Assembly: GCA_017431785.1 (NCBI GenBank)
Contig: JAFRKJ010000037.1
Location: 62,001-126,000 of the forward strand
Origin: Bacillota bacterium
GTDB lineage: Bacteria; Bacillota; Clostridia; Peptostreptococcales; Anaerovoracaceae
DNA: 64,000 bases
Direction: 5' to 3'
Part shown: positions 778-8,433 of the stretch, piece by piece
Layout: each line of letters opens with the position of its first letter
How positions within the stretch are numbered: position 1 is the first letter of the stretch
Notes under the pieces: model-generated
The model's database searches: none
The model's input: only the letters and a program-made list of their open reading frames with translations
Told to the model about the DNA's origin: nothing
Translations under genes and position numbers: made by a program

Positions 778-820
778 AAAATACAAAAGCAAGAGGAATT
801 GCCTTACAATTCCTCCTGCT
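778..820 (-). terminator. Rho-independent terminator of the corrinoid/surface-protein operon
   Basis: On the minus strand a 14-bp stem with one mismatch (arms 788-801 and 807-820, five-base loop) is followed by a T-rich run. It lies just after the lipoprotein gene ending at 867 and before the efflux pump start. Confidence 0.85.
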
Positions 821-866
821 CTGTTCACTCAAAGAAACGCCGGAAAGGCATCTAACCATCTCTGCC

Positions 867-2042
867 CTACTCAAGCTTCTTCAGGTATTTCAAATCTGTC
901 GGATTCTTTTCCGAGAACAGTTTGTGGAAATCCAGTATCATCTCAGAAACGATGTCTGTTCTCTGATACATGGCACTTCCTGTAACCCAGCAGTTATTGT
1001 TCTTGACTGCGGTCAATTTCTTCATAATCGGATCCTTTGCTATAAGATCATCCATTGTCTTTACGGAACCGTCGATGCTTCCGTTATAGATGATGTAATC
1101 CGCATCCACAGCCGTATCATAGAATGTCTCCATTGAAACATCGATGGAAGTCCGACCACTTTCATCATCAAGATTTTTGAAAATGTATCTCGCTCCGGCG
1201 ATCTCGATCATCTTAGGGATATAGTCTGTGCTTCTGCGTACAACAGCTTTTCCATCCGTCGAAATATAGAAGAATGCTACCGTTTTTTCCGTGTTCTTAA
1301 AATCATCCAATGCCTTGATGGACTCCATCTGTCCAGCGAAAAATTCTTCTGCCTGTTCTTCATGATCTGTCAGAACTCCATAGAGCTTGATCCATTCTGC
1401 TCTGCCCATCGGGTCAGATTCGTAACTGGAGCGATCAACCATTACAGGAATTCCCAGATCCTCGAGCATTTCCTTCACTTCCGGCGTATGATCGATCATA
1501 GTCGACTCCAGCGCCAGATCACATCCTTCTTTCAGAATGGTTTCATAATCCGGCGCACTGTACTTGCCTGCAAAAATAATGTCCCCTTTTTCCATTGCCT
1601 CTTTTGGTTCATCAAAGGTCCAGGACTCCTTCGGAACAGATGACATGCGGATAGAATCAATTGCATCAATCGAACAGAACATTGCCATGGTTGCTGTGGC
1701 TGCCAGATAGATGTCGTCGATTGGCTTCTGCAGAACTATGATATCGCTCTCCAGATTTTCCGGAACTGCGCCGCCTTCCGGAACAATGAGAAAACGCTGG
1801 AATCCATGGATATCTATCAAATCATATCCGCCTTCGTAACGGTACACGCTGTATTCCGTAGCCCTCTGCAAATCCAGTGTCGATTCATAGGCCAGCCCAT
1901 CAATCTCAGGAACGCTTTCTGAAGACTGCCCGCTTGTTTCGCCACCGCAGCCAGTAAACAAACCCACAGTCAGCATACACAGCGATATGAACAACGCAAG
2001 CAGTCTGCGGGTTGTTTTATGCTTCTTATCACTATTGCTCAT
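867..2042 (-). CDS. ABC-transporter substrate-binding lipoprotein, BtuF/FhuD-like
   Basis: This 391-residue protein has a basic N-terminus, a hydrophobic stretch and a lipobox ending GLFTGC (about residue 32), so it is probably lipid-anchored outside the membrane. Two alpha/beta lobes follow, joined by a helix, as in class III binding proteins for siderophores, haem and cobalamin. Typical segments are IPVMVDRSSYESDPMGRAEW near residue 200 and a second lobe starting at EKTVAFFYIST. Its start overlaps the stop of the upstream surface-protein gene by 11 bases, with AAGGAAAAG as ribosome site, so the two are translationally coupled. Together with the upstream cobalamin riboswitch this points to corrinoid binding; haem or iron chelates remain possible. 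No permease or ATPase gene lies in this operon, so it must use a partner encoded elsewhere. Confidence 0.85.
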   Translation of the reverse strand: MSNSDKKHKTTRRLLALFISLCMLTVGLFTGCGGETSGQSSESVPEIDGLAYESTLDLQRATEYSVYRYEGGYDLIDIHGFQRFLIVPEGGAVPENLESDIIVLQKPIDDIYLAATATMAMFCSIDAIDSIRMSSVPKESWTFDEPKEAMEKGDIIFAGKYSAPDYETILKEGCDLALESTMIDHTPEVKEMLEDLGIPVMVDRSSYESDPMGRAEWIKLYGVLTDHEEQAEEFFAGQMESIKALDDFKNTEKTVAFFYISTDGKAVVRRSTDYIPKMIEIAGARYIFKNLDDESGRTSIDVSMETFYDTAVDADYIIYNGSIDGSVKTMDDLIAKDPIMKKLTAVKNNNCWVTGSAMYQRTDIVSEMILDFHKLFSEKNPTDLKYLKKLE

Positions 2043-5016
2043 TGTCTATCTTTTCCTTTTTATTTTCTTTGATATATTTTTCAAAAAGCTCATCAGAAGC
2101 TTTTTCTTCTCCATAGATCGCACCATACACCTTGATCCATTCCATATCACCATAGTTGGTTGTTTCATCCTTGGAACGGTCAATGATCATAGGAATGGAA
2201 AGGGATGAATATCTCATCTGCAATCTGTGTAACGTTTCCGTCTTTTCTTTGGATGCTTCTACCTGTTCGTCCGTACTCTTCTTTGTCACCTTCTCAGGGA
2301 GCGCCGTAGACGGAAACACCGCCAGATCTCCCTCTTCCAGTACGATTTTCTTAAAATCAGGCTTATCGTATTCTCCCAAATCATCCATTTTCTGAAGCAC
2401 ATCCTTCTTTCCAAGCTTTGAAATCTTATCGCCTGCTTCTTCCGCAAAAGCAAATGTGCTGTCTACCGGTTTATTGATGATAATACAATCTTTTTCTAAA
2501 CCTGCCGGGAGTTCTACGCCTTCAGGAACCACCAGATAATTGACGATGTTGTTCTGATACAGCTCATTTGTGAACTCATTCTCAGATTTGGCGATTGGCT
2601 TTCCTTCTTCATCGTATTCGATTTTTTCTTCACCATTTGCGGCGTCAGATTTTGCTTCTTCCGATTCCTTCTTTGGCTTTTTGTAAAGCGCAGTGTCCTT
2701 ACTTTGATCGATTTCGATCAGGGTGATTCCCTGTTCATATTTGAAAATTTTGAACAGCTCTGCATTCTTGATTTCCGTTTTTTCCTCAAACGTAAGGCCT
2801 ATCAGTTCCGGCGCTTTGTCCGACAGCTTATTGGTGCTGACCAGTTTTCCATCAGTTCCATCTTTGTCATCCTTCCCTCCTGTTGCACCGGCTTTATATA
2901 TGAATATCTTATACTGGACCCAATGCGGCTGCGACATAGCTGTCGTCCTGCCGATGATTGTATTATTAGCATTCAGTTTTACAGGAATGACAAACTTGGA
3001 GTTTCCGCCACCCTGTTTTGAATAGATTCTTCCGTTTGCTTTAAGCGAATCATACTTGCTGCTTCCAAATTCAATCGTCGCGAAAGCCTTCCCGCCTTTC
3101 ACGGTAATCTTATTGCAGCGGATGTATGCGAGTCTTCCTGAACCTCCGGACCACCTGAATTGATCCGGTGTATAAACGCCGTCCTTCAAGCTTGTCGAAT
3201 TATCAACTGCGCTCGTACTCTTGTTCCTGTCATCTTTCCACTTGGATTCCTTGTCAGCCTTATTATCGTTCTTGAACTCTTTCTGCGTCCCACTTGTCTT
3301 TTCGGAATCACTGGCCTTTTTCTTGCCCGGATTGATTGTTGTGCCGTCTTTTACTTTCTGAGCTCCTTTGCTATAGAACAATATCCACTTGTTAGGTCTC
3401 CATGGATCTGTGGTCGGATCCGCATCCAGTTCATACTTTTTGGAATGCGGTGTAATCGTCAGTTTCTTATCAAGCGATGAAACCGGAATCGTAAAGGTGT
3501 AGTACCCGTTTACAACTTTTGCTTTAATCCATTTACTTTTACCTGCGTTTCTCGCCTGCTTCGGTGTCCCCATATAGACATAGTCATATCCATCTCCTGA
3601 CAGGGTAATGGTTGCCGTCATGGATTTGTTTTTGTTGACCTTAAGAATCACCCATGCAGGATCTGTCGTCTTAGGATTCAGATAGAACATTTTTCTATCG
3701 GTTGTTGCCTTGACTTTCCATGTCCCAACAGAAAGCTTCTGTTTATCTTTTGGATCTACTGGTGTTGGGTCAACCGGAGTCGGATCCACCGGCGTCGGAT
3801 CAACTGGTTCTGTACCTTCCTCCGGGTTCGTTGGGATGTCCGTGCTGTCGCTGATTTTTTCAGAATCCGGCGTCAGTGTAATCTTATATGTATAATTTAC
3901 CCAGTGAGGCGCCGTCATCGCAGTTGTTCTGCCGCTAAACGGTTTTACTTCGTTTAAGACAACAGGTACAGATACCTGCTTGTTTCCGATGGTGTATACG
4001 TCTTTGCCCTTTTTCTTTGTTGCAGGATCGTACAGTTCAGGCGTTTCATTTTCAGAAGGTGCCGTTCCCATATAAACATGGGTCATCTTATCACTATTGG
4101 TAGTGAAAACCGCTGTAGCATTACCATTGATAACGATTACTTTGCTGCAGTCAAATTTGGCTTTTCCTGTTCCGCCATCAAATTCAAACTTATCCGGTTT
4201 ATAGGTGCCATCCTGGATGCCCGCATCTCCTATACGATCACTATCTTCGACAGAAACCGTAATCCTGTATGTGATCCAATGCGCATCCTCCATCGCGGTT
4301 GTCCGTCCGCTCAGGTACATCTCAGTGCCAATGCTTACAGGAATCGTTGCAAAAGCACCGTTGTCAGCGATATTTGTCTTATATACACCTTTCCCGATCG
4401 CACCCGTTGCTGTATTGTAGAGGTCCGTATTGGCATCATCACCATTGTTTTCCTGCTCTACAGTCCCTGTGAAAAAGTGTTCATACTTAGTGCTGCTCGT
4501 TCGGATAACAGCTTTCGCTTTTCCGCCCGATATGATGACCTTATCACAGAAGAACTTCGCCTTTTTGGTACCTCCGGAATAGCTGAAACCGCTTGCCTGA
4601 TATTCTCCATCAGCAAGACTGGTGCTGTTGTTTACTTCATAATAAACAGAATGACCGCTGCCTGCTGCCTTTACACTCTCAGAGCTGCCGGCATTTGTCT
4701 TCACTTCACTCGTAGATTGCTCTACAGATTCTGTGTTTGTCCCTGCTTCTTCTGAAGTGCTTTCTGTAGATAAGGATTCCTCTTGCTGAACCACGTCTTC
4801 AGACTGTTTTTCCTCTTCTGAAGGCTGTTCTTCCTTGACCGGTTCTTCTTCAGGCTCCGCCTTTTCCGCAGGCGCAGTCTCTTCAGTCACAGCCTCTGTG
4901 CTGCTTTCAGCTCCGGCTGCTGTCAATTGATCATCTGCAAAAGACGGAACGGTCCATGCCACTGCAACCATAATGGCCAGCAATACCGAAATGAACTTGT
5001 TTTTATAGTGCATCAT
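2032..5016 (-). CDS. Large secreted protein: repeated NEAT-like domains fused to one binding-protein lobe
   Basis: A 994-residue protein. It has a signal peptide (residues 1-27, ending VPSFA), a Glu/Ser/Thr-rich spacer to about 120, then beta-rich domains. Three copies share the pattern D-G-x-Y....GG(T/S)G-(K/R)-(A/L).....GRTTAM..xHW-(I/V)-x-Y (about 128-258, 262-385 and 610-715). A fourth, variant domain lies at about 425-545 (LSGDGYDYVYMGT...FTIPV), preceded by a PVDPT repeat linker. Residues 737-994 match the first lobe and connecting helix of the binding protein encoded next (compare IPMIIDRS...MEWIKVYGAIY). The size and last-strand pattern resemble NEAT domains of haem-scavenging surface proteins, but I cannot confirm the family. 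There is no LPXTG signal. RBS AAAGGATG. It lies in the cobalamin-riboswitch operon; the presumed role is capture of a corrinoid or similar tetrapyrrole and hand-over to the lipoprotein. Confidence 0.8.
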   Translation of the reverse strand: MMHYKNKFISVLLAIMVAVAWTVPSFADDQLTAAGAESSTEAVTEETAPAEKAEPEEEPVKEEQPSEEEKQSEDVVQQEESLSTESTSEEAGTNTESVEQSTSEVKTNAGSSESVKAAGSGHSVYYEVNNSTSLADGEYQASGFSYSGGTKKAKFFCDKVIISGGKAKAVIRTSSTKYEHFFTGTVEQENNGDDANTDLYNTATGAIGKGVYKTNIADNGAFATIPVSIGTEMYLSGRTTAMEDAHWITYRITVSVEDSDRIGDAGIQDGTYKPDKFEFDGGTGKAKFDCSKVIVINGNATAVFTTNSDKMTHVYMGTAPSENETPELYDPATKKKGKDVYTIGNKQVSVPVVLNEVKPFSGRTTAMTAPHWVNYTYKITLTPDSEKISDSTDIPTNPEEGTEPVDPTPVDPTPVDPTPVDPKDKQKLSVGTWKVKATTDRKMFYLNPKTTDPAWVILKVNKNKSMTATITLSGDGYDYVYMGTPKQARNAGKSKWIKAKVVNGYYTFTIPVSSLDKKLTITPHSKKYELDADPTTDPWRPNKWILFYSKGAQKVKDGTTINPGKKKASDSEKTSGTQKEFKNDNKADKESKWKDDRNKSTSAVDNSTSLKDGVYTPDQFRWSGGSGRLAYIRCNKITVKGGKAFATIEFGSSKYDSLKANGRIYSKQGGGNSKFVIPVKLNANNTIIGRTTAMSQPHWVQYKIFIYKAGATGGKDDKDGTDGKLVSTNKLSDKAPELIGLTFEEKTEIKNAELFKIFKYEQGITLIEIDQSKDTALYKKPKKESEEAKSDAANGEEKIEYDEEGKPIAKSENEFTNELYQNNIVNYLVVPEGVELPAGLEKDCIIINKPVDSTFAFAEEAGDKISKLGKKDVLQKMDDLGEYDKPDFKKIVLEEGDLAVFPSTALPEKVTKKSTDEQVEASKEKTETLHRLQMRYSSLSIPMIIDRSKDETTNYGDMEWIKVYGAIYGEEKASDELFEKYIKENKKEKIDNEQ

Positions 5017-5043
5017 TGAAATGCATCCTTTCTTAATAGCATG

Positions 5044-5078
5044 GCGGAAACCGCCCGTAAAAACAGGCGGTTTGCCGC
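5044..5078 (-). promoter_or_regulatory. Intercistronic stem-loop between the two surface-protein genes
   Basis: Arms AAACCGCC (48-55) and GGCGGTTT (66-73), extended by GCGG/CCGC outside, form a strong hairpin without a following T-run. It probably tunes or stabilises the operon message rather than ending it. Confidence 0.5.
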
Positions 5079-5110
5079 AATGAATTCGTTATGGGTAATT
5101 AACAATTCAC

Positions 5111-8017
5111 TTATTTTACTTTAACTTTAATTGTCTTTGTTACTGTGGCTGCTTTGTAGTTTGTTGACTTGGCAGCTGTTGCCTTTACCTTGATGGAATA
5201 AGTTCCCTTCTTGGTCTTTTTCTTTACCGTAATTTTACCAGTCGTCTTATTGATTGTTAACTTGCTGGAGCCGCTTACCTTGGCATAAGTGACCTTTGTT
5301 TTCGCACCGCTGACAGCTACCTTGCTTGTTGTCTGTGCCTTCTTTTTCAGCGCCTTGAACTTGACACTCTTTTGTGCTGCAGACATAGTAAGTTTCTGTA
5401 CAGCCGGATTGATCTTGATTGTCTTGTATGCGCTTCCGCTGTAGTTCCCCTTCAGTGTAACAGTAACTTTATAGCTTCCCGCATTGATGCGTCCTTTCGC
5501 ATAAGATACCGTATAATCCGTATTCTTGGTCAGTGTCTTCGCACCGTCCTTCACGGTAACAGCTGGCGTCTTTGCCTTACCATTATAGGTATAGGTGGTT
5601 GTCGACAGCGTTACTGCAGGTGTGATCTTTTTCGCATTGATCTTGAATTCTGCAGTCTTAGTGCCAGTGTAATTTCCTGTTCCATTAATTGTTACTGTTG
5701 CTGTACCCACATTTGTATTGCTGCTATATTCCACTGTATAATCTGTATCCTTAACCAGAGTCTTGCCGTCGAATGTAACAGTTGCAGGCGTAAGTGCTTT
5801 GCCGGTATAGGTCTGCGCAGGGACGTCAATGGTAGCAAATGAAAGCTTTCCTACGAGTGCCTTGACAGCCTGATCGATTGCGTTAGCCATTCCGTCAACA
5901 TCTGCCTGTTCGTTTGCTTTCTTATCGCGAACAACTGCATTTACTGCTTCTGTAACAGCTGCTGCAGTCTCTTTCGTGTATATGCTGAGATCTTCCGGTA
6001 CTTTCTCAAGTGCTGCATCTACTGCTGCATAATCCGCATCAAAATTCTCAAGTGCTGGTACAGCCAGGTAATACTGATCTGATGTCGTAGCGCCATCCTT
6101 CTTCTTGATAGGAGCTACCGGAACTGCCCATCCGCAATTCTCTGTGTCCAGATCAAATACGATCTTTCCATCGGAATCCAATTCTACATCTTTGGTCAGT
6201 TCTTCATTGATTCCGCCCCAATGCATCCACCCATATACCGTGGTGTTCTTAGGAGTGATAGATATATGGATTTTTCCATCACTGTAGGTGTATGTGGAGC
6301 CTTCCTGCGGAATCCACATTCCAAACGCTGATCCGTCTTTCTTGATGAACTGAACAGTTGTACCTTCATATTCGAACTTCGCTACTCGAAGTCCCTTGAC
6401 CGCTTTCTCGATTGCATCGGCCATTCCGTCAACATCTGCCTGCTCTACTGCTTTCTTACCGCGGACAACTGCATTCACTGCTTCGTTGACAGCCGCTGCG
6501 GTCTCTTCCGTGTATATGCTGAGATCTGCAGGGACTGTCTCAAGTGCTGCATCTACTGCTGTGTAATCAGCATCGGCAGTAAAGTACTCAAGCGCTGGTA
6601 CTGCCAAATAATACTGATCCGATGTCGTAGTGCCATCCTTTTTCTTGATAGGTGCTACCGGAATCGCCCATCCGCAATTCTCTGTGTCCAGATCAAATAC
6701 GATTGTTCCATCGGAATCCAATTCTACATCCTTAGTCAGTTCTTCATTGATTCCACCCCAGTGCATCCAACCGTATACTGTCTTGTTTTTTGGAATGATA
6801 GACATATGGATCTTTCCATCATTGTAGGTGTATGTGGAGCCTTCCTGCGGAGTCCACATTCCAAATGCTGACCCGTCTTTTTTGATGAACTGAACAGTTG
6901 TGCCATCATATTCAAACTTATCTACAGTAAGCGCGTCACCATTTATTTCTATAGTCTTTGCTGATTTATCTATCGTTACAGTTCTTACCACATTTGTTCC
7001 AGCCCCTACATAAGGCGCATCTTCGGCTACATGGAAAGTCATTTCAATAGGCGTCTTGTCCTTGAAAGCCTCTTTATTCGGTGCATTTGTCATTGAAATT
7101 GCAAACTTTCCATCTACCAGTGTAGCATCGGCTGTACTAATTGCGTTGCCAACTACTGTAGGGAATGTAACTTTGTCATATGCCGAGTCTTCCATTACCA
7201 ATGTAGGTGCCACACTGTAGTTGTTGGAATTCGGTCCTCCTACTACATGTGTTGCTGCCGTATCTGCAACTTTGAAGTCTGCCACATTGGACGTTACCGT
7301 ATAATTCGAAGTCTCATTGTAGTCATCCGTTACAATTGTCTTCGCTTCTCTGTCGACTGTGAACTGTCTCGGATAGAATGCTCTTGAAAGGTCATTTTGT
7401 CCATTGAGGTACTTCGTATAATATGAGTTGGATATGGCAACAACCGGTACGAAGGACTCATCTGCATTCAATGGAATCGTGAATTCGTATTTGCCTGCGT
7501 CATTTGTGGTGGAATGAATCCAGGTATTGTTACCTTTGTCAGCGGATCCGTCTCCGTTTTCAACTGCCGCTTCGTATGTTCCTTTATACAGTTCCTTGTA
7601 TCCTGTCCCGGAAAGTGCCATTACAAGATATTCCTGATCGTTCTTTGTAGTGAGATAGGCAGTTTCAGCCTTAAACATACTTGTATTATTTGTGATTGTG
7701 AGATCGATATCTTCGGACTGAGCGGTAAGTTCATCGCCCATAGCTGTCACTTCCGGTTCATCTTCCTGAACAACTGCTTCCTCTGCCGGCTCCTCTTCCT
7801 GAACCACTGTTTCGTCCGATGATTCTTCTTCCAGAACCACTTCTTCGCCTGCTGGTTCTGCTTCTGTTGCAACAGCATCACCTTCGTCCAGTGTCACGGC
7901 TGGATCATCGCTTGGTGTGCCTTCAACATTCTCTGCTGCGAATACATTGAGTCCCATGGTGAACATCAGCATGAGAGACAATGAAACCGCAATCAAACGT
8001 TTCCATACTTTCTCCAT
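5111..8017 (-). CDS. Large secreted surface protein with NEAT-like, duplicated FIVAR-like and Ig-like domains
   Basis: The start is placed at 8017 (MEKVWKRL, RBS GGAGGGAAAGGAAG), giving 968 residues. Reading further upstream would run through the riboswitch terminator. The signal peptide ends NVFAA near residue 28, and an acidic Glu-rich spacer follows. Then comes a beta domain (about 100-240) sharing LSGTGYKELYKGT...YEFTIPL with the neighbouring 994-residue protein. Two near-identical units (about 364-538 and 544-719) each hold a Trp-rich part (FGMW...YGWMHWGGINEEL) and a helical FIVAR-like part. Two Ig-like repeats follow (YTGKALTPATVTFDGK; YNGKAKTPAVTVKDG), then a very Lys-rich C-terminal domain. 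No sortase motif; the basic tail may bind wall polymers. It is the first gene after the cobalamin riboswitch. Probable role: surface capture of a corrinoid (inference). Confidence 0.82.
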   Translation of the reverse strand: MEKVWKRLIAVSLSLMLMFTMGLNVFAAENVEGTPSDDPAVTLDEGDAVATEAEPAGEEVVLEEESSDETVVQEEEPAEEAVVQEDEPEVTAMGDELTAQSEDIDLTITNNTSMFKAETAYLTTKNDQEYLVMALSGTGYKELYKGTYEAAVENGDGSADKGNNTWIHSTTNDAGKYEFTIPLNADESFVPVVAISNSYYTKYLNGQNDLSRAFYPRQFTVDREAKTIVTDDYNETSNYTVTSNVADFKVADTAATHVVGGPNSNNYSVAPTLVMEDSAYDKVTFPTVVGNAISTADATLVDGKFAISMTNAPNKEAFKDKTPIEMTFHVAEDAPYVGAGTNVVRTVTIDKSAKTIEINGDALTVDKFEYDGTTVQFIKKDGSAFGMWTPQEGSTYTYNDGKIHMSIIPKNKTVYGWMHWGGINEELTKDVELDSDGTIVFDLDTENCGWAIPVAPIKKKDGTTTSDQYYLAVPALEYFTADADYTAVDAALETVPADLSIYTEETAAAVNEAVNAVVRGKKAVEQADVDGMADAIEKAVKGLRVAKFEYEGTTVQFIKKDGSAFGMWIPQEGSTYTYSDGKIHISITPKNTTVYGWMHWGGINEELTKDVELDSDGKIVFDLDTENCGWAVPVAPIKKKDGATTSDQYYLAVPALENFDADYAAVDAALEKVPEDLSIYTKETAAAVTEAVNAVVRDKKANEQADVDGMANAIDQAVKALVGKLSFATIDVPAQTYTGKALTPATVTFDGKTLVKDTDYTVEYSSNTNVGTATVTINGTGNYTGTKTAEFKINAKKITPAVTLSTTTYTYNGKAKTPAVTVKDGAKTLTKNTDYTVSYAKGRINAGSYKVTVTLKGNYSGSAYKTIKINPAVQKLTMSAAQKSVKFKALKKKAQTTSKVAVSGAKTKVTYAKVSGSSKLTINKTTGKITVKKKTKKGTYSIKVKATAAKSTNYKAATVTKTIKVKVK
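5860..6935 (-). repeat. Tandem in-gene duplication, about 535-540 bp per unit
   Basis: Two adjacent units (about 5860-6395 and 6404-6935) inside the 968-residue surface protein are alike base by base over most of their length, for example the stretches at 6121-6200 and 6661-6740. The offset between matching points changes from 534 to 540 bases, so one unit carries a six-base indel. They encode the Trp-rich plus FIVAR-like module. Confidence 0.85.
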
Positions 8018-8041
8018 TCTTGTCTTCCTTTCCCTCCAAAC

Positions 8042-8073
8042 AAAAAACCTTTTTGCGACTTCTCGCAAAAAGG
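8042..8073 (-). terminator. Terminator (expression platform) of the cobalamin riboswitch
   Basis: On the minus strand a perfect 11-bp stem (arms 8063-8073 and 8048-8058, four-base loop) is followed directly by six Ts. It lies between the aptamer and the first gene's ribosome site, so transcription is probably stopped when cobalamin binds. Confidence 0.85.
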
Positions 8074-8169
8074 CCATAATCAATACATAAGAAACATAGA
8101 AAGGAAAACCATTCGGTCTTGTCCTGCTATACATATCATTGACGGAACTTTCTGCGGAAGTTCGTTTAT

Positions 8170-8380
8170 CAATCCCAAATCGGCAGGCTTCCTGGCTTAA
8201 GATCATCATCTCCCTGCGCCTTCTCAAATCCTTTCGGACTCAATGGCATCTGCAGGCAGACTCCCTATCACAGTGACCGGATCGCTCAGGTATCGCACCT
8301 GATTTCCTATTATCCCATTGAGCATTGAACTGTCCTTTCTCTAATACTCACCCAACGGGCACCGATCTGATATTAATTTG
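8170..8380 (-). promoter_or_regulatory. Cobalamin (B12) riboswitch aptamer
   Basis: Read on the minus strand, the hallmark elements come in order. GGTGCC opens near 8365. AATCAGGTG...CCTGAGCG...GGTCACTGTGATAGGGAG is the core of the aptamer. GCCATTGAG...GAGAAGGC forms the next paired element. The B12 box AAGCCAGGAAGCCTGCC lies at about 8181-8198. This matches the known adenosylcobalamin-class consensus closely. A terminator and the start of the surface-protein operon follow, so the operon is expected to be switched on when corrinoid is scarce. Confidence 0.93.
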
Positions 8381-8404
8381 TAGTTGTGCCTCATGCACGC
8401 GATT

Positions 8405-8433
8405 ACTGTAACATGAAACTTATTGCTTGTAAA
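8405..8433 (-). promoter_or_regulatory. Promoter of the cobalamin-controlled operon
   Basis: -35 TTTACA (8428-8433), a 17-base spacer and -10 TACAGT (8405-8410) on the minus strand. The predicted start near 8398 lies just before the aptamer. Confidence 0.55.

Follow-up and report, generated by a model that had tools for sequence, protein, structure and literature searches.

Gut bacteria compete for B12, and its capture at the cell surface has been described mainly for Bacteroides. In Gram-positive bacteria the NEAT fold is used for haem in the Isd relay, which is under iron control. According to excerpts of three reports, Bacteroides has the surface lipoproteins BtuG and BtuH, which act together with a transporter of the outer membrane (PMC6143338, PMC8941943, PMC10404256). 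Transcobalamin-like SLBB proteins are presented, in an excerpt of a further report, as extracellular proteins found also in low-GC Gram-positive bacteria and predicted to scavenge B12 or its precursors (PMC1796856). As for NEAT domains, excerpts of two papers define their haem-binding motif as S/YxxxY (PMC7815599) and describe 51 NEAT domains of the Clostridial Group without YxxxY, for which other haem ligation or an unidentified role was proposed (PMC4143258). The word cobalamin does not occur in the text of either of these two papers, and at the level of titles and beginnings of abstracts the open-access literature searched yielded no link of NEAT with corrinoids; five texts, among them PMC5736727, contain both 'cobalamin' and 'NEAT domain'.

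We analysed a 64-kb stretch of DNA (the window), part of contig C83 of a 2.72-Mb genome that is 81% complete and contains six cobalamin riboswitches. An operon in this window combines a cobalamin riboswitch with two large secreted proteins and a BtuF-like lipoprotein.

The window operon

The features of the operon are as follows.

8165-8381, minus strand: cobalamin riboswitch aptamer (RF00174), full-length covariance-model match, 94.7 bits, E 2.8e-22
8046-8075, minus strand: putative attenuator, a hairpin like an intrinsic terminator with 13 pairs and a T-run, downstream of the aptamer and ahead of the ATG at 8017
5111-8017, minus strand: gene of the 968-aa secreted protein (ORF listing)
2032-5016, minus strand: gene of the 994-aa secreted protein (ORF listing)
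867-2042, minus strand: gene of the 391-aa BtuF-like lipoprotein (Peripla_BP_2; ORF listing, PF01497 E 1.8e-37)
786-822, minus strand: terminator-like hairpin at the operon end, 17 pairs

The riboswitch and the gene order are certain. The RF00174 alignment spans positions 1-189 of the 189 of the model, scores 94.7 bits against a gathering cut-off of 31.5, includes the B12 box AAGCCAGGAAGCCTGCC and is the sole Rfam match above the gathering score within the window. A sequence-only reading of this DNA had described a full cobalamin riboswitch, a terminator platform ahead of the first gene, three genes in one direction and a terminator closing the operon, and each of these was recovered, the hairpins at 8075-8046 (-) and 822-786 (-). 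The promoter it had placed before the operon fared less well: a candidate 9/12 site lies at 8433-8405, but the stretch holds 8 promoter-like sites, fewer than the mean of 13.0 in shuffles. The fold of the leader beat 100 of 100 shuffles (z -3.62). The 968 residues of the first protein are counted from the ATG at 8017, the longest open frame there starting further upstream and reaching 1038 aa, and the genes of the 994-aa and 391-aa proteins overlap by 11 bases. Signal peptides of both large proteins and the lipoboxes were judged by eye. No permease, ATPase or CbiK gene was found in the operon, and a motif search of both large proteins detected no LPxTG-type motif.

Domains of the two large proteins

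Alignment of the internal repeats with proteins encoded elsewhere in the genome defined two related domains of about 100-120 residues, A and B. Domain A starts with a [SGN]-x-Met-Phe stretch and ends mostly in WYD[HR]. Domain B carries a C-terminal TTAM..PH...Y motif, its PHW/PHE part being among the best-conserved parts of the domain. Independent A and B profiles, built solely from the relatives' loci L057-L136 and containing no window sequence, gave the E-values cited below for the A and B domains.

7337-7723, minus strand: A domain of the 968-aa protein, residues 99-227 (independent A profile, residues 102-210, E 3.2e-12)
6572-6916, minus strand: A-prime copy 1 of the 968-aa protein, residues 368-482 (repeat alignment)
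6032-6376, minus strand: A-prime copy 2 of the 968-aa protein, residues 548-662 (repeat alignment)
4243-4620, minus strand: B domain 1 of the 994-aa protein, residues 133-258, motif GRTTAMEDAHWITY (independent B profile, E 5.3e-9)
3868-4221, minus strand: B domain 2 of the 994-aa protein, residues 266-383, motif GRTTAMTAPHWVNY (independent B profile, E 3.3e-10)
3364-3738, minus strand: A domain of the 994-aa protein, residues 427-551 (independent A profile, residues 427-533, E 6.1e-18)
2887-3192, minus strand: B domain 3 of the 994-aa protein, residues 609-710, motif GRTTAMSQPHWVQY (independent B profile, E 1.3e-19)
2035-2817, minus strand: C-terminal region of the 994-aa protein resembling the N-lobe of the BtuF-like lipoprotein (E 3e-14, 159 residues, 26% identity)

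The 968-aa protein thus consists of one A domain, a middle domain (M), two A-prime copies, FIVAR-like repeats and a repeat-type C-terminus, and the 994-aa protein of B, B, A and B followed by a half BtuF, a C-terminal region in which no C-lobe of BtuF was found. The GRTTAM..PHW motif had been taken to be shared by both proteins. It is indeed repeated, with three copies in the 994-aa protein, but TTAM is absent from the 968-aa protein, in which the best E-value of the independent B profile was 0.96. We also considered A-prime as a form of the A domain and rejected it, since none of the independent profiles (A, B, NEAT) picks it up; A-prime matched no Pfam family above cut-off and showed no relation to NEAT. 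It occurs as well in relatives' proteins in L140, L142 and L143.

Neither large protein matched a Pfam or NCBIfam family above cut-off. Compared with solved structures, the 994-aa protein gave nothing below E 0.17, and the sole matches of the 968-aa protein were to hexosaminidases, in their FIVAR-like parts (best E 0.0004). A structural or adhesive role at the surface, with synthesis tuned to B12 and domains that bind no ligand, would also suit proteins of this size that combine many domains, FIVAR-like and repeat-type ones among them. We hold this to be highly unlikely in view of the small lipoproteins that consist of A+B alone, the B-BtuF fusions and the common operon order described below.

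Relation to NEAT domains

Profile-profile alignment with clostridial NEAT sequences gave a probability of 95.9% for B and 94.6% for A. In control runs with 200 column shuffles for each domain the maxima were 4.2% and 32.9%, respectively, the reversed profile reached 0.2-0.3%, and five other domain sets compared with the NEAT profile, including A-prime and the middle domain, stayed at or below 10.9%. This first NEAT profile held three sequences of genome G448, two of them from a riboswitch-bearing contig. After removal of all three (leaving four sequences from two genomes, none of them linked to a riboswitch), B still scored 94.6% over 100 columns and A 94.1% over 83 columns, while 100 column shuffles of each gave at most 1.7% (B) and 4.6% (A).

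We then considered the Pfam NEAT model (PF05031). Among the 47 A+B rows of alignment A5 (46 of the 49 relatives found, plus the window fragment), 40 matched with E-values of 1e-3 or lower, 9 of them with 1e-7 or lower, and the fused relative L118 scored 34.4 bits, above cut-off. No match was obtained for the window proteins or the window A+B fragment; the own-genome paralogues P0002 and P0001 scored 23.3 and 22.5 bits, below the cut-off of 32.8, and Pfam NEAT at E ≤ 0.001 matched nowhere in the genome. The family is thus NEAT-related, with window members too diverged for Pfam. The best solved-structure matches of the B alignments were weak (E 0.004-0.03) and fell on 3sz6/3sik, labelled 'Conserved domain protein', which we take to be the NEAT domain of Bacillus anthracis Hal. 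The relationship to NEAT suspected for these beta domains is in line with the profile-profile probabilities of 94-96% against controls of at most 33% and with the 40/47 matching rows, and there is strong evidence at the level of profiles that A and B are distant NEAT relatives.

Neither A nor B carries the S/YxxxY haem-binding motif. HxxxY was present in 71 of the 80 motif-bearing B domains (of 81 B domains), the own-genome paralogue P0001 having Val in place of His. Comparison of HxxxY with YxxxY, together with the end-to-end profile alignment, suggests that the His of domain B stands where haem NEAT domains carry the iron-ligating Tyr; we infer this register of His against Tyr, because the clostridial NEAT sequences used also lack YxxxY there.

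The lipoprotein and haem as a possible ligand

Residues 115-356 of the 391-aa lipoprotein aligned with positions 5-233 of the 235 in PF01497 (E 1.8e-37; 129.5 bits, cut-off 27.5) and so carry a nearly complete Peripla_BP_2 domain, in agreement with the earlier description of the protein as BtuF-like. It is 70% identical over 381 residues to P0004, a paralogue in the same genome whose gene adjoins FecCD and ATPase genes. No NCBIfam model matched the lipoprotein above cut-off; the only named model near it was that of the haem protein IsdE (E 6.3e-6, 25.6 bits, cut-off 298.65). The best models for the FecCD and ATPase genes were BtuC and the corrinoid ATPase, both below cut-off.

The weak IsdE match and the kinship of A and B to NEAT would both be expected of haem-binding NEAT proteins that happen to be under B12 control. 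Against this, B lacks YxxxY and has HxxxY, and the transporter genes of this genome score best, if below cut-off, against the corrinoid models. Moreover, of nine genomes with Pfam-passing NEAT matches, five have cobalamin riboswitches, and in four of the five NEAT is not near a riboswitch. We regard haem as a very improbable ligand, and set it aside as the main explanation because of the B12 context.

The exception is G448, a genome of another family, which offers an independent case of the B12 link: a cobalamin riboswitch is followed directly, after about 240 bases, by a NEAT gene that passes the Pfam cut-off (50.1 bits), and CbiJ lies on its other side. Downstream of this NEAT gene follow an ORF with no match to the BtuF query, then FecCD, an ATPase and CobN. 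The locus L178:2188-14953 (-) holds in one run a riboswitch, a Pfam-passing NEAT gene, FecCD, an ATPase, CobN, a second NEAT gene and two AAA-type chelatase-like ORFs (by eye), and is a possible operon for corrinoid or tetrapyrrole metal exchange. In L179 and L180, NEAT genes lie far from a riboswitch and near nitrogenase-type reductase-like ORFs (by eye) and ABC transporter genes.

A and B proteins elsewhere in the genome

Matches to A or B at E ≤ 1 (seven and ten, the ten being of A and including two A-prime) fell in four proteins, confined to the window operon and the B12 gene region of the same contig in this 81% complete genome. Because the profiles were seeded from those same proteins, the telling part of this search is the absence of matches elsewhere; the two A-prime matches are circular, since A-prime seeded alignment A2.

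The two A+B proteins of the B12 gene region are encoded about 39 and 45 kb from the window operon. A riboswitch lies upstream of a CbiK lipoprotein gene and an A+B lipoprotein gene on the same strand, and the FecCD, ATPase and BtuF-like lipoprotein genes adjoin these on the opposite strand. The second A+B protein has a C-terminal membrane segment and its gene follows a second CbiK gene and a tetrapyrrole methylase gene. Further B12 biosynthesis genes in this region were judged by eye. In this genome, homologues of the cobaltochelatase CbiK with a lipoprotein signal (lipobox by eye) were seen downstream of cobalamin riboswitches at L007:11234-12538 (+) and L010:1723-2946 (+). L010 (contig C56, 3.5 kb) carries a pair of cobalamin riboswitches separated by about 1.6 kb, and a CbiK lipoprotein gene follows the first of them.

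Link to the cobalamin regulon within the family

Domain B was present (E ≤ 1e-4) in 30 of the 148 genomes of the family, our own included, and in 14 of 245 genomes of a wider sample of the class. Cobalamin riboswitches were found in 28 of the 29 other B-bearing genomes, G125 having no riboswitch match. Within the family, B occurred in 29 of 107 riboswitch-bearing genomes versus 1 of 41 others (one-sided Fisher p 2.6e-4). The majority of riboswitch-bearing genomes thus lack B, and its presence in 30/148 genomes, though 107 have a riboswitch, indicates that B is not a general part of B12 supply.

The B matches listed in the 29 related genomes were grouped into 53 B genes, and riboswitches were counted at E ≤ 0.001. 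A same-strand riboswitch lay within 8 kb upstream of 38 of these genes, against 0.6 expected from random placement, one of the 38 pairs resting on a match just under the gathering score; 15 genes had none within this distance. With either strand allowed, 43 genes were within 10 kb of a riboswitch and ten were not. B genes within one cluster are not independent, but counted per genome 23 of 29 still have at least one riboswitch-linked B gene.

Loci in named genomes

A profile search of contigs of named genomes yielded at least 584 confirmed relatives, of which the best 80 loci were kept; by their titles these are mostly from Lachnospiraceae and other Clostridia, and also from Coriobacteriia. 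Contig numbers could not be linked to accessions, so each riboswitch mapped here also had to carry a B12-box-like sequence. There is a slight overlap between the two surveys, as the L057 contig, which agrees with the G120 contig in length and in the position of its riboswitch, is apparently the G120 contig.

The covariance model placed a riboswitch upstream in 59 of the best 80 loci (of at least 584), including 57 of the 61 with CbiK. The usual order after the riboswitch among these best 80 is CbiK, A+B, BtuF, FecCD, ATPase: a same-strand CbiK homologue was found in 61 loci, a BtuF homologue in 66, and CbiK, BtuF and FecCD together in 54. Among the species with a riboswitch, an A/B domain and BtuF together at one locus are Roseburia inulinivorans, Blautia caecimuris, Gemmiger formicilis and Faecalibacterium longum. 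The sequence-only reading had suggested looking for the same domains beside B12 riboswitches; the 38 of 53 B genes against 0.6 expected and the 59 of the best 80 loci answer this positively and make the tie of the family to the cobalamin regulon very strong.

The 21 of the best 80 loci (of at least 584) without an upstream riboswitch comprise four with CbiK, seven others with BtuF, nine solitary B genes and L096, beside which no B12 neighbour was recognised. Several of those with CbiK or BtuF start at a contig end. The solitary B genes are those of L062, L070, L077, L084, L104 and L131 (Coriobacteriaceae, Atopobiaceae, an actinobacterium) and of L110, L124 and L127 (Blautia); their surroundings showed neither an upstream riboswitch nor BtuF nor an A domain. 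They were considered as counter-examples to the B12 link and rejected as such, their neighbours looking, by eye from ORF starts, like B12 biosynthesis genes. Pfam confirmed such neighbours for L070 (CobU, CobS, histidine phosphatase, DBI_PRT, CbiC), L062 (CobS) and L110 (one tetrapyrrole methylase), so that for the Blautia loci the B12 case is the single methylase of L110.

Several relatives are fusions. B and BtuF share one open frame in six of the best 80 loci of at least 584 (L095, L102, L107, L113, L118, L132), and L147 encodes a complete BtuF-like protein joined to a B domain. In six of the eleven regions L137-L147, namely L137-L142, an A/B protein of 767-1168 aa has a half BtuF at its end, and the gene immediately after it encodes a complete BtuF-like protein, with FecCD also downstream in five of the six. 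CbiK and A and/or B share one open frame in ten of the best 80 (of at least 584): L065, L085, L087, L089, L098, L103, L106, L109, L113 and L116; chelatase and NEAT-like domain would then be parts of a single protein. The B/BtuF and CbiK/A-B fusions are the strongest evidence from sequence that the NEAT-like domains, the transporter binding protein and CbiK act jointly.

Two larger proteins were also seen. One, of 1595 aa, is encoded by L137:984-5771 (+) right before the gene of the 994-type protein; it has two CbiK domains, and its C-terminal part is of fibronectin type. The other, of 1467 aa, is encoded in L144:1337-10108 (-) and combines A and B domains with FMN-binding domains and a Shr-like domain. 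Its gene lies behind a cobalamin riboswitch together with genes for an ApbE protein and FMN-binding proteins, a cluster that perhaps serves corrinoid reduction outside the cell.

The presence of CbiK in 61 of the best 80 loci (of at least 584) is not explained by simple capture and leaves room for a precursor or cobalt role. The ligand might be a B12 precursor or a cobalt-bearing tetrapyrrole (sirohydrochlorin, cobalt-sirohydrochlorin, cobinamide) instead of a finished cobamide, with a secreted CbiK acting on it extracellularly. The ten CbiK/A-B frames, the two CbiK domains of the 1595-aa relative, the lipoprotein-like CbiK of our genome (lipobox by eye), the placement of its A+B proteins among tetrapyrrole genes and the CobN in the riboswitch-linked NEAT run of G448 would all fit. 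Set against these are the window operon itself, which has no CbiK; nine of the best 80 loci (of at least 584) that have BtuF and lack CbiK (66 with BtuF, 57 with both); and the solitary B gene of L070, whose neighbours act late, in nucleotide-loop assembly: CobU, CobS and a phosphoribosyltransferase of the CobT type. On balance we judge a precursor as ligand to be rather unlikely.

Proposed function

We consider it probable that the window contains an operon that is repressed by cobalamin and serves to capture corrinoids outside the cell with domains from a divergent NEAT branch, as a B12 counterpart of the Isd haem relay. At low intracellular cobamide the aptamer would be empty, the attenuator at 8046-8075 would be bypassed and the operon would be expressed. 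The secreted 968-aa and 994-aa proteins, presumably retained at the surface, would then bind corrinoids through their A and B domains, a role for which gene context and domain relationships give good grounds. In domain B the conserved HxxxY would lie at the place of the YxxxY that ligates iron in haem NEAT domains, with His as the putative ligand residue. The 994-aa protein, via its half BtuF or directly via B, would load the corrinoid onto the BtuF-like lipoprotein, which may in turn feed the FecCD permease and ATPase whose genes lie about 37 kb away, next to that of the 70%-identical lipoprotein. Against capture speak the failure of the window domains to match Pfam NEAT, an operon with neither permease nor ATPase, a His that is not universal, and the occurrence of B in only 30 of 148 genomes.

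Corrinoid capture by the window operon could be one case of a wider specialisation. We give about an even chance to the idea that a whole branch of the NEAT superfamily, widespread among gut Clostridia and also found in Coriobacteriia, is dedicated to corrinoids, with a His suited to cobalt in place of Tyr, hand-off to a sometimes fused BtuF and an extracellular, likewise sometimes fused CbiK in the relay.

If capture is correct, common gut Clostridia possess capture machinery of their own, derived from a fold that serves for haem in other Gram-positive bacteria. A family of secreted proteins that lack an assignment would gain a function, and a ligand would be predicted for many 'NEAT' proteins that score below threshold. 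With purified domains one could then test directly how the same fold accommodates tetrapyrroles of iron and of cobalt.

Comparison with known systems

As in BtuFCD, a Peripla_BP_2 lipoprotein adjoins a FecCD permease and an ATPase in our genome (models below cut-off) and in relatives, whereas the window operon holds the binding protein alone. To our knowledge, BtuFCD as described so far has no counterpart of the half BtuF that the 994-aa protein carries. With Isd/NEAT (PF05031) the window system has in common the repetition of NEAT-related domains on secreted proteins and a neighbouring Peripla_BP_2 lipoprotein, and relatives have FecCD-type genes. It differs in its cobalamin riboswitch, its B12 gene neighbours, the HxxxY of domain B, the lack of LPxTG and the lack of a match to the Pfam model. 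With BtuG and BtuH, as far as the excerpts cited above describe them, it would share extracellular B12 capture ahead of uptake, but it employs NEAT-like domains, and the named relatives of its genome belong to Clostridia and Coriobacteriia. Finally, the SLBB proteins, according to the excerpt available, have a beta-grasp fold and CbiO/CbiQ-type neighbours (PMC1796856), in contrast to the NEAT-like domains with BtuF and FecCD described here.
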